Below, one piece after another: positions 17,722 to 48,199 of a stretch of 64,000 bases of DNA. The first letter of the stretch is position 1. The number at the start of each line of letters is the position of its first letter. The notes below the pieces were generated by a model. That model was given only the letters and a program-made list of their open reading frames with translations. It ran no database searches and was not told the origin of the DNA. Source of the stretch: Mycolicibacter hiberniae (GTDB lineage Bacteria; Actinomycetota; Actinomycetes; Mycobacteriales; Mycobacteriaceae); the NCBI RefSeq assembly GCF_010729485.1, contig NZ_AP022609.1, positions 1,736,001-1,800,000 of the forward strand, given 5' to 3'. The translations under genes and the position numbers were made by a program.

Positions 17722-18552
17722 GTGGCAGACAAGATCCCCGTCGACCTGCACGGCGCCGCGGCAACCATGCTGACGACGCTCTATCTCAAAGCACTCGATG
17801 CCGATTTCGACTCCCCGGTGCTGGGCGACCGGTACGCCAAGGAGGCCGTCGAGCGCATCGACTTCGACTGGGACGCCCTCAAAGCTCCCGGCCGCTGGGC
17901 GCCCCTGGTGACCGTGCGCACCGCCCAGTACGACATCTGGGCTCGGCAGTTTCTGGCCAGCCACCCCGACGCCACCGTCATCCACCTGGGCTGCGGCCTC
18001 GACGCCCGGGTCTTCCGCATCGACCCGGGACCCGAGGTGACCTGGTACGACGTCGACCAGGCGCCGGTGATCGCGTTGCGCGCACAGGTTTACCCCGACC
18101 GCCCCGGCTACCACCTGATGGCGACCTCGGCCACCGACCCGACGTGGCTGGACAAGATCCCGGCGGATCGCCCGGTGCTGCTGCTGGCCGAGGGCATCAG
18201 CATGTACCTGACCGAAGCCGACGGCGTGGCACTGCTGCAGAGCATCGTCGACAAGTTCCCGTCCGGCGAACTGCAGATCGACTTCTACAACTGGTTCGGG
18301 ATCAAGACGCAGAAGACGCACCGTCTGCAGCGCCAGTCCGGCGCGAGCCTGCACTGGGCGGTCAACGACCCCAGCGACATCCTGGACAAGGTGACCGGCG
18401 TTCGGCTGCTGGCTGCCACCGACTTCTTCGACGCGCAGACCTTTGACCGGGTCCCGGCCGGATTCCGGCGTTCCAGCCGCCTGGCCCGGGCGGTGCGGCC
18501 GCTGCGGGCAATGCTGCAGTACCACCGCTACGCCTTCGGCCCGGTCAGCTGA
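17722..18552 (+). CDS. LCM-type SAM O-methyltransferase
   Basis: This 276-residue protein is of the leucine-carboxyl-methyltransferase/TcmP-like family common in mycobacteria. VIHLGCGLDARVFRI near residue 78 binds SAM, WYDVDQAPV near 102 and LLLAEGISMYL near 145 are family blocks, and the C-terminal half is less conserved. The GTG at 17722 begins the family sequence ADKIPVDLHG. An upstream GTG (17683) and ATG (17692) are alternatives. It is the only + strand gene between the flavodoxin operon and papA5. Its 3' end overlaps the convergent papA5 gene by 8 bp. The tight packing suggests it belongs to the lipid locus and methylates a carboxyl or hydroxyl group, with substrate unknown. Confidence 0.85.
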   Translation: MADKIPVDLHGAAATMLTTLYLKALDADFDSPVLGDRYAKEAVERIDFDWDALKAPGRWAPLVTVRTAQYDIWARQFLASHPDATVIHLGCGLDARVFRIDPGPEVTWYDVDQAPVIALRAQVYPDRPGYHLMATSATDPTWLDKIPADRPVLLLAEGISMYLTEADGVALLQSIVDKFPSGELQIDFYNWFGIKTQKTHRLQRQSGASLHWAVNDPSDILDKVTGVRLLAATDFFDAQTFDRVPAGFRRSSRLARAVRPLRAMLQYHRYAFGPVS

Positions 18553-19801
18553 CGCCGGCGGCGTGCTGCTCGGCGATGCCGCAGAGCAGTGCCCGAATGG
18601 CCTCCACCGAGCGCTCCGGCTCCGGTCCGTGGGAGTGGTATTCGATGTTGAGCTGGCCGGCGAAGATCTGCGTGAAGTAGATGTCGATGCCGGCGCTGAC
18701 CGCGAAGTACAGCTCACCGTGCGTCGTGGTGACCTGAACGCCCGGTGGCGTGCGCACCGGCGGTACCAATCCGTTGTTGCTCAGCACCACGACATCGGGC
18801 AGCCCCGGCGGGTTTCCCACGTACTGCGGACTGAAGTGCAGCCGGGACTGCTGGATCACGCCCTCGTCGAGGTCCTTCTGGAAGTTCGCCGCGATATCGC
18901 GAGCCAGCTCGACCAGGTCGGTCTTGGTGTCGACCTCGGCCAGGTAGGTCGCCAGCCCGATCGGATTGGTGCAGCCGGTGGCCGAAACCGGTGGTGACAG
19001 AAAGTATCTCAGGTCGACGGTGTAGACGTAGGGCACCGGGATGCTGAGCTTGCCGCGCAGCTGCCATTCGGCTATCAGCACCGCCGCGGAGAGCACGGCG
19101 TGCAGGCTCAGATCGTGCGCACGGCCGAAGGCCACCACGTTGTCGGTCTGGCCTTCGGTCAGCCGGCACGACGCCATCGGCACCAGCACCGGCGACGACG
19201 GCGCCTGCGCCGCGACGGCCCGCCGGGTGGGCGGCAGATCGTAGGCGAACAACGCCGGCATGAAACGCTCGATTCCGGAGCGCTGTTGCTTGTCGATCCC
19301 CCGATCGGACAGCACCGCCTCGATCGACAGCGGAGCGGGCTCGACGTTCATCGCACCGATCCGGCCCGTGGTGACCAGATCGGTGTAGTAGGACAGCATC
19401 TCCTCGATCAACGCGTACATGTGGTGACCGTCGGCGACGGCATGGTGCACGTACAGCGTCGGCTGGGCCTGCCCGTCGCGGATGATCACCCGCATCGCCA
19501 CCAACGACTCGGTCTGGTCGAAGTGCGGGGCGGGCGGCTGCTCGTCGGGCCCGTCGAGCTCGATGACCTCGATACCGTCGGGCATCAGGTCGTCGGTGAC
19601 GAACTGGTGGTGCCCGTCCGGCAGACGCTCCAGGCGCCCGGTGAGGATCGGATGCGCCTCCAACAGCGCCTCATAGGCCTCCGAGAGCAGATCGATGTCG
19701 ACCGGACCGGTGACATGGGCCGCCAGACCCACGAAATTATGGGTTTCGGCCAGCATCTCCTCGCTGTTGGCGAGCTTGCGGATAACCGAGGTGGCAAACA
19801 C
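18545..19801 (-). CDS. papA5: PapA5-like polyketide acyltransferase
   Basis: This protein of about 418 residues is close to PapA5, which esterifies mycocerosic acids onto the phthiocerol diol during DIM synthesis. The condensation-type catalytic motif HHxxxDG is present as HHAVADG near residue 120, and VDLRYFL and GVIQQSRLHF match PapA5 blocks. The frame is open to 19975 over the preceding gene. GTG 19801 aligns with the PapA5 start (VFATSVIRKL) and has AGGGG upstream. It follows the PpsE-like gene by 17 bp, so it shares its transcript. In the M. tuberculosis locus drrABC lies between ppsE and papA5; here it does not. The acyl donor is unknown because no mas gene is present in the window. Confidence 0.92.
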   Translation of the reverse strand: MFATSVIRKLANSEEMLAETHNFVGLAAHVTGPVDIDLLSEAYEALLEAHPILTGRLERLPDGHHQFVTDDLMPDGIEVIELDGPDEQPPAPHFDQTESLVAMRVIIRDGQAQPTLYVHHAVADGHHMYALIEEMLSYYTDLVTTGRIGAMNVEPAPLSIEAVLSDRGIDKQQRSGIERFMPALFAYDLPPTRRAVAAQAPSSPVLVPMASCRLTEGQTDNVVAFGRAHDLSLHAVLSAAVLIAEWQLRGKLSIPVPYVYTVDLRYFLSPPVSATGCTNPIGLATYLAEVDTKTDLVELARDIAANFQKDLDEGVIQQSRLHFSPQYVGNPPGLPDVVVLSNNGLVPPVRTPPGVQVTTTHGELYFAVSAGIDIYFTQIFAGQLNIEYHSHGPEPERSVEAIRALLCGIAEQHAAGVS

Positions 19802-19818
19802 GTGTGGCGATATCCCCT

Positions 19819-46934: not shown

Positions 46935-47482
46935 TGCGTTGTCTTCTCCTTGTGCTGTCAGGTCCGTGACCCCCACCTGCGGAGCGCTTCGCCCCGCAAA
47001 GGTGTCCGAGCTGACGGTTTCGCTGTGCACGGTCCCTGCACAACGGGGGTATGCAATTGGGTGAGCGACATTTAGGGATGCTTCCCCCGCGAGATCAGAC
47101 GTTGCGAGCACCCCAAACGGAATTGCTCAGCTGAATACGTCAACCCCAGCGCAGGTCGGTTGCTGGCCGTGCCGAGCCAAGACGGGGGCGGGGACCTCCA
47201 GGCGCCGAGATCGCCCGGCAGCCATGGCCGGTGCGGAGGATTCGATCATCGACACGGGTACCCCTTCTGGATGTTGGAACCTTCGCAAGAACTCCTTGGA
47301 CCCCGACATCCCAGGTGTTTCCCTCCCGCGGAGGCTATCACGGACGCACAGCTGACAGGCAATTTGTGGCTGCCGAGCAGCGCAGATACAGCAGTCCGCC
47401 ATAGTAGCGGAGAACTCATTACCGCACCACCGATGTCGCCCGTGACGGCGGCGAATCCGGGACTGCGTGCCGGGCTGAAATG
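46935..47482. promoter_or_regulatory. tesA-fadD26 spacer, presumed operon promoter region
   Basis: This 548-bp stretch between tesA and fadD26 has lower GC than its surroundings and no gene I can defend. It must hold the promoter for the 28-kb fadD26-pks-papA5 transcript, since tesA ends 0.5 kb upstream. A 91-codon frame at 47127-47402 on the - strand is open but unlike any known family. In M. tuberculosis a small gene of doubtful status (Rv2929) occupies the equivalent position. The ribosome site for fadD26 is at its end, about 11 bases before 46934. Confidence 0.45.
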
Positions 47483-48199
47483 TCAGCGCTCAAGCAGTCG
47501 CGCGAGCTTGTCCTCGATGTCGCCGACCAGTTCGGGCAGGTGTTCGTTGAGGTAGAAGTGGTGACCGGGCGCGGTGAAAACTCGCGCACTGAACTCCCCG
47601 GTGGTGCGCTGCGCCCAGGGCCCCACTTTTTCGTCGGTCGCGACGTCGTCTTCGTCACCATGGAAGGCGAAAATGGGGCACGACACCTGCGCCTCCGGCG
47701 GGCAGTCGTAGTTCGCGATGGCTTTGAGGCCGCGCAGGGTGGGCAGAATCTTGGCCGCGAACTCCTCGTTCTCCAGGAACTCGGGGTTGACCCCCGTCAT
47801 CGAGCTCATCGCATCCAGCAGGCCCCGGTCGGACTCGGGGATGTTGTCGTAGCCCGCCCGACCCGGAGCACCGGCGGCCGAGACGAACAGGGCGGCGATC
47901 CGGTGGCCGTCCGCCTCGAACCGGCGCGCGACCTCGAACGCCAGCAGCGCGCCCATGCTGTGTCCGAAGAAGACCACCGGCCCGTCGGAGGCCGTGGGCG
48001 GCGCGACGGTCTTGCAGACCTGGTCGGCGAGGTCTTCGATGCTGGTGAAAGCGCCGAGGTCATGCGTTCCGCCCTTGCCGGGGTACTGCACGCCGATCCG
48101 TTTGACGTCGGTGGTGAACGCCTTGGAGAACCCGACATAGTACTGCGGCGATCCGCCGGCGTGCGGGAAGATATAGAGCTTCGGCGTGCGGTCAGTCAC
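47483..48199 (-). CDS. tesA: Type II thioesterase, TesA-like
   Basis: This 238-residue alpha/beta-hydrolase thioesterase acts on PKS-bound chains. LYIFPHAGGSPQYY at residue 8 is the type II thioesterase opening, VQYPGKGG follows near 38, GHSMGALLAFEVARRF near 78 has the nucleophile Ser, and a late GDEDDVAT Asp and PGHHFYL His complete the triad. TesA is needed for DIM and phenolic glycolipid formation and lies just upstream of fadD26 in M. tuberculosis, as here. ATG 48199 is used. It is separated from lipL by 75 bp and marks the right edge of the lipid locus. It may edit stalled modules or release the finished chain. Confidence 0.93.
   Translation of the reverse strand: MTDRTPKLYIFPHAGGSPQYYVGFSKAFTTDVKRIGVQYPGKGGTHDLGAFTSIEDLADQVCKTVAPPTASDGPVVFFGHSMGALLAFEVARRFEADGHRIAALFVSAAGAPGRAGYDNIPESDRGLLDAMSSMTGVNPEFLENEEFAAKILPTLRGLKAIANYDCPPEAQVSCPIFAFHGDEDDVATDEKVGPWAQRTTGEFSARVFTAPGHHFYLNEHLPELVGDIEDKLARLLER

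Follow-up and report, generated by a model that had tools for sequence, protein, structure and literature searches.

The genes for phthiocerol dimycocerosates (DIM) and phenolic glycolipids (PGL) stand in an order that we take to be fadD26-ppsA-E-drrABC-papA5-mas-fadD28-mmpL7, and a locus of this canonical type was seen in one of the genomes compared here (G104; genomes are given by G numbers). We analysed a stretch of 64,000 nucleotides of the one-contig genome of Mycolicibacter hiberniae (4,396,654 bases; NZ_AP022609.1, positions 1,736,001 to 1,800,000), called the window below. It carries on its minus strand, in transcription order, tesA, a fadD26-like gene, five polyketide synthase (PKS) genes (PKS1 to PKS5) and papA5, with lipL-meaB-mutBA adjoining tesA. 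Like the canonical DIM locus, it has tesA, fadD26, a PpsE-type terminal PKS, PapA5 and a PpsD-like module. Unlike that locus, it has no drrABC, no adjacent mas and no enoyl reductase (ER) module; the heads and tails of its modules are permuted, two modules share the same docking ends, and the tailoring genes and chromosomal neighbours are different. On balance, we read the locus as a forked, diamond-shaped phthiocerol-like assembly line for a cell-envelope lipid, possibly with two congeners.

In the vatiamide system, a cyanobacterial peptide-polyketide pathway with diverging branches that combines PKS and nonribosomal peptide synthetase (NRPS), one PKS reportedly feeds several partners via like docking ends. 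Judged by the relevant passages of PMC9205934, the closest mechanistic precedent is the bifurcated desotamide/wollamide NRPS line, which arose by duplication and intragenomic recombination. There, as proposed here, a synthase that arose by duplication competes for a single upstream donor, and redundancy permits loss of a branch (PMC9205934). That line is an NRPS with its fork at the last step, whereas the window would hold a PKS lipid line with a mid-line fork that rejoins at PKS4. Among mycobacteria, pps and papA5 without mas and mmpL7 were described for M. gilvum and partly for M. vanbaalenii (PMC3089613), so that the locus has company in environmental mycobacteria with papA5 and pps but without mas. 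The pertinent passages of that survey give gene presence only, with drrC in all 21 genomes; module order, docking and forks lie outside them. The PapA5 of G084, whose locus is of a two-entry type described below, shared 71-73% identity with proteins named for M. gilvum or M. vanbaalenii. Among the open-access titles and abstracts listed, a set mostly outside subscription journals, none was on this locus, on rewiring of Pps docking or on forked phthiocerol synthases.

The preliminary description of the window had proposed a tesA-fadD26-pps-papA5 locus, which structure and family profile matches for tesA, fadD26, the PpsE-type PKS5 and papA5 bear out. Reading frames were picked by the G+C content at third codon positions (GC3) per frame. 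The TesA-type thioesterase (47483..48199; this and the following genes all on the minus strand) has TesA 6fvj as its best solved match (E 4e-80), and the FadD26-type fatty acyl-AMP ligase (45177..47111) matches NF004509 at 870 bits (cut-off 775) as well as the FadD23 and FadD28 structures. The PKS genes are built from ketosynthase (KS), acyltransferase (AT), dehydratase (DH), ketoreductase (KR) and acyl carrier protein (ACP) domains. Between their docking ends, PKS1 (39893..45157, with the frame lost inside) reads KS-AT-(DH-like)-KR-ACP, PKS2 (35107..39873, its start set at an ATG within a longer open reading frame, ORF) loading ACP-KS-AT-KR-ACP, PKS3 (29657..35110) KS-AT-(degenerate DH)-KR-ACP and PKS4 (24225..29660) KS-AT-DH-KR-ACP; a domain scan gave the PpsE-type PKS5 (19819..24228) as KS-AT-ACP-Condensation. 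The domain order of PKS1 was read from relatives and two window pieces, and its tail was taken from a separate downstream piece. As previously described, papA5 (18545..19810) follows straight after the PpsE-like gene, with zero genes between. Its product matches PF16911 (PapA_C) at 207 bits and 1q9j PapA5 at E 2.4e-120, and falls short of the cut-off set for NF006790, the PapA5 equivalog (614.7 versus 716 bits).

The stated match to ppsA-E stood for gene count, order and strand, which are alike, but not for the synthases themselves: these are chimeric, their heads and tails are permuted, and the first gene lacks a loading carrier. PpsA is given as ACP-KS-AT-DH-KR-ACP in the part of PMC9210659 that concerns it. 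In the window, the loading ACP is carried by PKS2 alone and not by the first PKS gene, so the carrier that starts the line would here sit on the second gene.

Module ends were typed with docking profiles trained only on six loci with a PpsC-type ER (G104, G029, G026, G109, G131 and G142). The docking kinds were set by gene order in these loci and were first seen by eye, then modelled: alpha joins PpsA to PpsB (three loci: G104, G029 and G026), beta leads into PpsC, gamma joins PpsC to PpsD, and delta joins PpsD to PpsE. In the window, PKS2 ends in beta-C, PKS1 and PKS3 each have beta-N and alpha-C, and PKS4 has alpha-N and delta-C; PKS5 has a short N-terminus with no docking profile match. Across the readable window-clade loci, the beta-N scores of PKS1 and PKS3 were 57-82 bits, the next best N-type reaching at most 9 bits. 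Both modules were beta-N and alpha-C in all eight window-clade loci with both N-termini readable (the window, G016, G022, G069, G066, G167, G188 and G190, the last being M. shimoidei). Four further loci have split genes or contig ends (G291, G149, G281 and G225), and their readable docks agree. Because PKS1 and PKS3 share input and output docking, these ends point to a fork and not to five modules used in a line, which the preliminary description had missed. The simplest reading of the order is PKS2, then PKS1 or PKS3, then PKS4 and PKS5. PKS1 and PKS3 seem to compete for the same step, and one cluster may make two versions of its lipid.

By the logic of PpsA, FadD26 would load a long acyl chain onto the N-terminal carrier of PKS2, the proposed first module and fork point, which would extend the chain, keep the beta-hydroxyl and pass the chain on via its beta-C dock. 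One of the proposed alternative second modules, PKS1 or PKS3, would receive it by beta-N and add one unit, the two differing in reductive halves and KR types; the alpha-C dock of either fits PKS4, the proposed merge point. PKS4, in which the DH motifs are intact, would give an unsaturated unit or, with a trans enoyl reductase, a reduced one. Domain scans found no ER domain in any PKS of the locus, and a 418-aa PF03435 protein at ~967.6 kb of the genome, without an NCBIfam match, is presumably a candidate trans enoyl reductase by its length and family. PKS5 would end the chain and PapA5 would esterify the product. Since four modules would act per chain, one fewer than in DIM, the backbone would be one unit shorter than phthiodiolone; two congeners should result, one per branch. 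In relatives, the PKS1 KR lacks the LDD-type signature present in PKS4, a motif that bears on KR stereochemistry. The AT domains of PKS1, PKS2 and PKS3 of the window form a clade apart from canonical malonyl AT.

Trees of the KS and KR domains place the two halves of the modules differently. In the KS tree, PKS2 groups with PpsA (support 100/100) and PKS4 with PpsB (99/92), while PKS1 and PKS3 fall inside the PpsC-KS clade (17 rows, 100/99). The KS groups follow the type of input dock, and the KR groups sort differently: PKS1 of relatives joins PpsA (nine rows, 100/100; the broken PKS1 KR of the window is not among them), PKS2 joins PpsB (100/100), and PKS3 and PKS4 lie in one unresolved group with PpsC and PpsD. 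By these placements, PKS1 joins a PpsC head to a PpsA tail, PKS2 joins a PpsA head to a PpsB tail, and PKS3 carries a PpsC head before a PpsD-like body; with its delta dock also considered, PKS4 joins a PpsB head to a PpsD-like tail. Each head/tail swap preserves a consistent docking chain.

The two modules with like docking are also alike in their KS DNA. Within a genome, the KS regions of PKS1 and PKS3 were 95.8-100% identical in six of seven genomes, and the same gene compared between genomes was 68.3-92.8% identical (21 genome pairs, both genes). Even in M. shimoidei, the two KS regions (78.1%) were closer to each other than each was to its own orthologues (77.1% at most). PKS1 and PKS3 paired by genome in the KS tree in four of six cases (the window, G016, G167 and G066). 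The relation is reversed in the DH-like part, with 46-53% identity between PKS1 and PKS3 within a genome and 57-88% between orthologues. In the window, the head, KS and AT of PKS1 (42608..45157, minus strand) showed 94-100% DNA identity to PKS3 (~32580-35110) in steps of 150 nt, except for the first step (86%) and the KS-AT linker (79-83%). This linker was 69-77% identical in the window, G022, G016 and G069, and 100% identical in G167 and G066. A collapsed repeat was ruled out as the source of the likeness, which is found in one-contig genomes and is accompanied by a diverged linker. The gap that separates the stop of fadD26 from the likely start of PKS1 (TTG 45136) holds a copy of the PKS2 3' end (45137..45176, minus strand; compare 35111-35150). 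This piece of ~40 bases precedes PKS1 in the window, G022, G016 and G069, although the preceding gene there is fadD26. The scar suggests that an older module received a copy of the PKS3 head along with part of the PKS2 end.

In the window assembly itself, PKS1 is interrupted. The frame is lost in its KR at approximately 40690..40880 (minus strand), with two open pieces that correspond to positions 1-32 and 109-179 of the KR profile, and there is an in-frame stop at 40757. The C-terminal half of PKS1 (850 residues) was stop-free in 18 of 20 genomes, including G225 (M. engbaekii); G085 was cut by a contig end, and a stop was seen in the window genome only. The lesion may be real or may instead be an assembly error. 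If it is real, only the PKS3 branch would run in this strain.

Three other uses of the five PKS genes were weighed against the fork. Since the genes share the order and strand of ppsA-E, they might work in gene order, from PKS1 through to PKS5, and make a DIM-like chain of normal length. This is quite improbable: PKS1 lacks a loading carrier and has a beta-N end, PKS2 has the loading carrier but no input dock, and the alpha-C tail of PKS1 fits PKS4, not PKS2. That PKS1 and PKS3 act one after the other in a single chain, with five condensations under relaxed docking, would give the unit count of DIM; it would, however, require alpha-C to feed beta-N, and the training loci G104, G029 and G026 place alpha-C before alpha-N. 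We regard this as highly improbable. A less remote proposal, still unlikely, is that PKS1 is a redundant leftover, that only PKS2-PKS3-PKS4-PKS5 works, and that the likeness of PKS1 to PKS3 is recombination noise. The broken PKS1 of the window speaks for it, as does conversion in other modules. The stop-free C-terminal half of PKS1 in all but two genomes speaks against it, and so does G206, which has a PKS1-type module as its sole second module.

Several observations count against the fork and the alternative use of PKS1 and PKS3 that it implies. Docking was typed on ends of ~45-60 residues, of kinds first judged by eye; alpha-C scores are modest for the window (23.5 and 27.6 bits) and low in other loci (7.0 bits in G098, 8.7 in G139 and 10 in one G191 module). 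The window's own assembly has a broken PKS1, the PKS3 of G149 is interrupted by ~7 kb between KS and AT, and G206 has a single route, PKS2-PKS1-PKS4-PKS5, without a fork. The PKS3 DH lacks the HGPAF stretch and the DH-like region of PKS1 is divergent, so both branches may yield the same oxidation state. In M. shimoidei, DNA identity between the two KS regions is only 78% and the tree does not pair them, the pairing in G022 is unresolved, and the likeness of the PKS1 and PKS3 AT domains (70-98%) is below that of the KS. Conversion also strikes other modules: the PKS3 and PKS4 AT domains are close in M. shimoidei, and those of PpsA and PpsB in G029 have the same amino acid sequence, which indicates conversion among pps modules in a canonical-type locus as well. 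For this reason, selection for interchangeability is not required to explain how alike PKS1 and PKS3 are.

The cluster is not peculiar to the window genome, nor is it a truncated DIM locus; it is shared by Mycolicibacter (the M. terrae group) with M. shimoidei and with some relatives. A papA5 match (E <=1e-20) was found in 131 of 297 genomes of the genus, 121 of them at E <1e-89 and ten distant (~26-33%). The window PapA5 shares 98% identity with its counterpart in Mycolicibacter engbaekii and 88-97% with those in 12 other genomes; such close genomes are termed Mycolicibacter-type on PapA5 identity alone. Named loci found with PapA5 belonged to Mycolicibacter in 18 of 24 cases and to M. shimoidei and Mycobacterium in the other six. 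The cluster itself was checked in G016, G022, G069, G291 and M. shimoidei, and partly in G225. The gene row is syntenic in G016, G022, G069 and G291 (the last without a close copy of the short-chain dehydrogenase/reductase, SDR, described below), and syntenic with more changes in M. shimoidei and G167. The site near lipL-meaB-mut, with the mutB position in relatives marked by 30% matches to a MutA query, is common to M. shimoidei and was not seen in 60 kb of G167.

Loci of a related class suggest where the fork may have come from. All six that were found (G054, G081, G084, G098, G139 and G184) have two pairs of fadD26 and loading module, each fadD26 preceding a module with its own loading carrier (in G084 this module is split in two ORFs). 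One loading module combines an alpha tail with a KR of PKS1 type; PKS2, as the other, feeds a beta-N/alpha-C module, so that both routes match the alpha-N of PKS4. Two alpha-tailed modules were also present in the G229, G191 and G281 loci. These two-entry relatives likely resemble the ancestor of the window-clade cluster, in which the PKS1-type loading head would have been replaced, one fadD26 and drrABC lost, and the fork shifted to the second step.

A broader view, which we consider possible but put a little below even chances, is that non-DIM mycobacterial pps-papA5 clusters are mostly diamond lines rejoining at PKS4, and that in M. shimoidei and the M. terrae clade conversion shifted the fork downstream by one step. 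PKS4 would be the PpsB-headed, PpsD-like module at which routes rejoin, with G206 as the exception seen. In Mycolicibacterium-type loci, the two routes would each begin at a separately loaded module; in the other two groups, conversion would have put the PKS3 head onto the second starter module and left the PKS2 tail there as a scar. The two interchangeable middle modules would set the hydroxyl pattern or stereochemistry of the diol, and ongoing conversion would keep the input ends of these modules similar without evening out their reductive halves. If the forked reading is right, linear DIM-type, two-entry and diamond lines would form a natural series in which head/tail swaps re-wire a lipid PKS with docking kept consistent, a Pps-family docking code would predict module order from sequence, and mycobacteria without drrABC would have an apparently uncharacterised, clade-wide phthiocerol-like lipid. 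As a separate observation, G281 has two copies of PapA5 and two pps-papA5 clusters, which are neighbours and partly broken.

The reported absence of drrABC was confirmed at the locus, and a DrrB query from G206 gave no match in the window genome (DrrA and DrrC were not searched separately). In G206, an ABC ATPase and two ABC2-membrane proteins, equivalent to drrABC, lie between the PpsE-like gene and papA5. We surveyed DrrB in 66 genomes picked from the papA5-positive list. There was no match in 16 (the window genome, 12 other Mycolicibacter-type genomes, G147, G190 and G030), and only paralogues of 29-37% identity in G066, G188 and G167, where those listed lay on other contigs or at a distance. 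The remaining 47 had drrB, G206 and G281 included, with 49-72% identity in the 46 outside G206. By coordinates, drrB adjoins papA5 in G070, G164, G262, G084 and G104; in G281 it stands beside only one of the two papA5 copies. In a PapA5 tree, the rows without drrB formed one clade (20 of 35 rows, support 100/100). Here the first G281 copy was labelled as lacking drr, its drrB being beside the second copy, and so were G066, G188 and G167, which have only the paralogues elsewhere. The single clade rules out local deletion or assembly loss of drrABC and fits one event in the ancestry of the 20 rows.

The locus also lacks mas, as the preliminary description had it. Four further PKS with a DH domain are encoded in the window genome, and the only Mas-like one, near 3.79 Mb, is 56% identical to the mas-like gene adjoining papA5 in G104. 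Its neighbourhood (~3.786-3.806 Mb) holds condensation-domain, MmpL, MFS and GT87 genes and a piece of a fatty acyl-AMP ligase, and probably serves a lipid of the acyltrehalose type. The PapA_C, PKS-DH, mas and DrrB searches, with one PapA_C match (that of the locus) and no DrrB match, ruled out that the genome has a canonical DIM locus at another site. The idea of a related but distinct lipid is well supported, by the lack of an ER module, adjacent mas and drrABC, by the cluster's own MmpL and tailoring genes and by clade-wide conservation; the earlier interpretation as a whole is partly supported. A divergent gene beside papA5 in G142 (7912-14514, 2200 aa) has the order ACP-KS-AT-DH-ER-KR-ACP, a loading-type head on a Mas-like body, and occupies the position of the mas-like gene of G104.

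The flanks of the locus are as previously outlined, with an MmpL and a different oxidative set that also includes two phthiotriol-type methyltransferases, a family used in DIM as well. The MmpL transporter (1496..4498, minus strand; 1000 aa) matches PF03176 at 703 bits and TIGR00833 and is syntenic in relatives. Because drrABC is absent, this candidate probably exports the product. Tailoring would involve the two methyltransferases, a cytochrome P450, an AurF-type oxygenase, an SDR and a flavin monooxygenase. The last (4550..6037, minus strand; frame chosen by GC3) is of the FMO/Baeyer-Villiger-like kind, with PF07992/PF00743 and a distant PtlE match. On the plus strand follow the AurF-type diiron oxygenase (6259..7338; PF11583, 311 bits), the first phthiotriol-type O-methyltransferase homologue (7292..8203; NF045823, 448.5 bits, cut-off 300), whose family we take by name to be that of Rv2952, the P450 (8312..9670; PF00067), the SDR oxidoreductase (9667..10497; PF00106, 152 bits) and the second O-methyltransferase homologue (10553..11374; NF045823, 350 bits against the same cut-off).

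At the other end, family matches agree with the described position beside lipL-meaB-mutBA. These genes, all on the minus strand, serve as location markers and are not claimed for the pathway: lipL (48275-49573; PF00144, the name being that of the preliminary description), meaB (49617-50606; PF03308), mutB (within ORF 50607-53918; PF01642 with PF02310) and mutA (52913-54817; PF01642).

Between the tailoring set and papA5 lie an alpha/beta hydrolase (11390..12553, minus strand; PF12697) and two proteins of unassigned family that look like paralogues by eye (12274-13734 and 13852-15540, minus strand). The latter gave no Pfam or NCBIfam match, are possibly secreted as read by eye, and are kept in several related clusters. 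They are followed on the minus strand by a nitroreductase-family protein (15694..16416; PF00881), a DUF2505 protein (16403..16993; PF10698, 135 bits) and a protein read by eye as flavodoxin-like (16920..17768), which has no Pfam match and is conserved in relatives. An LCM-family methyltransferase (17683..18552; PF04072) lies on the plus strand next to papA5.

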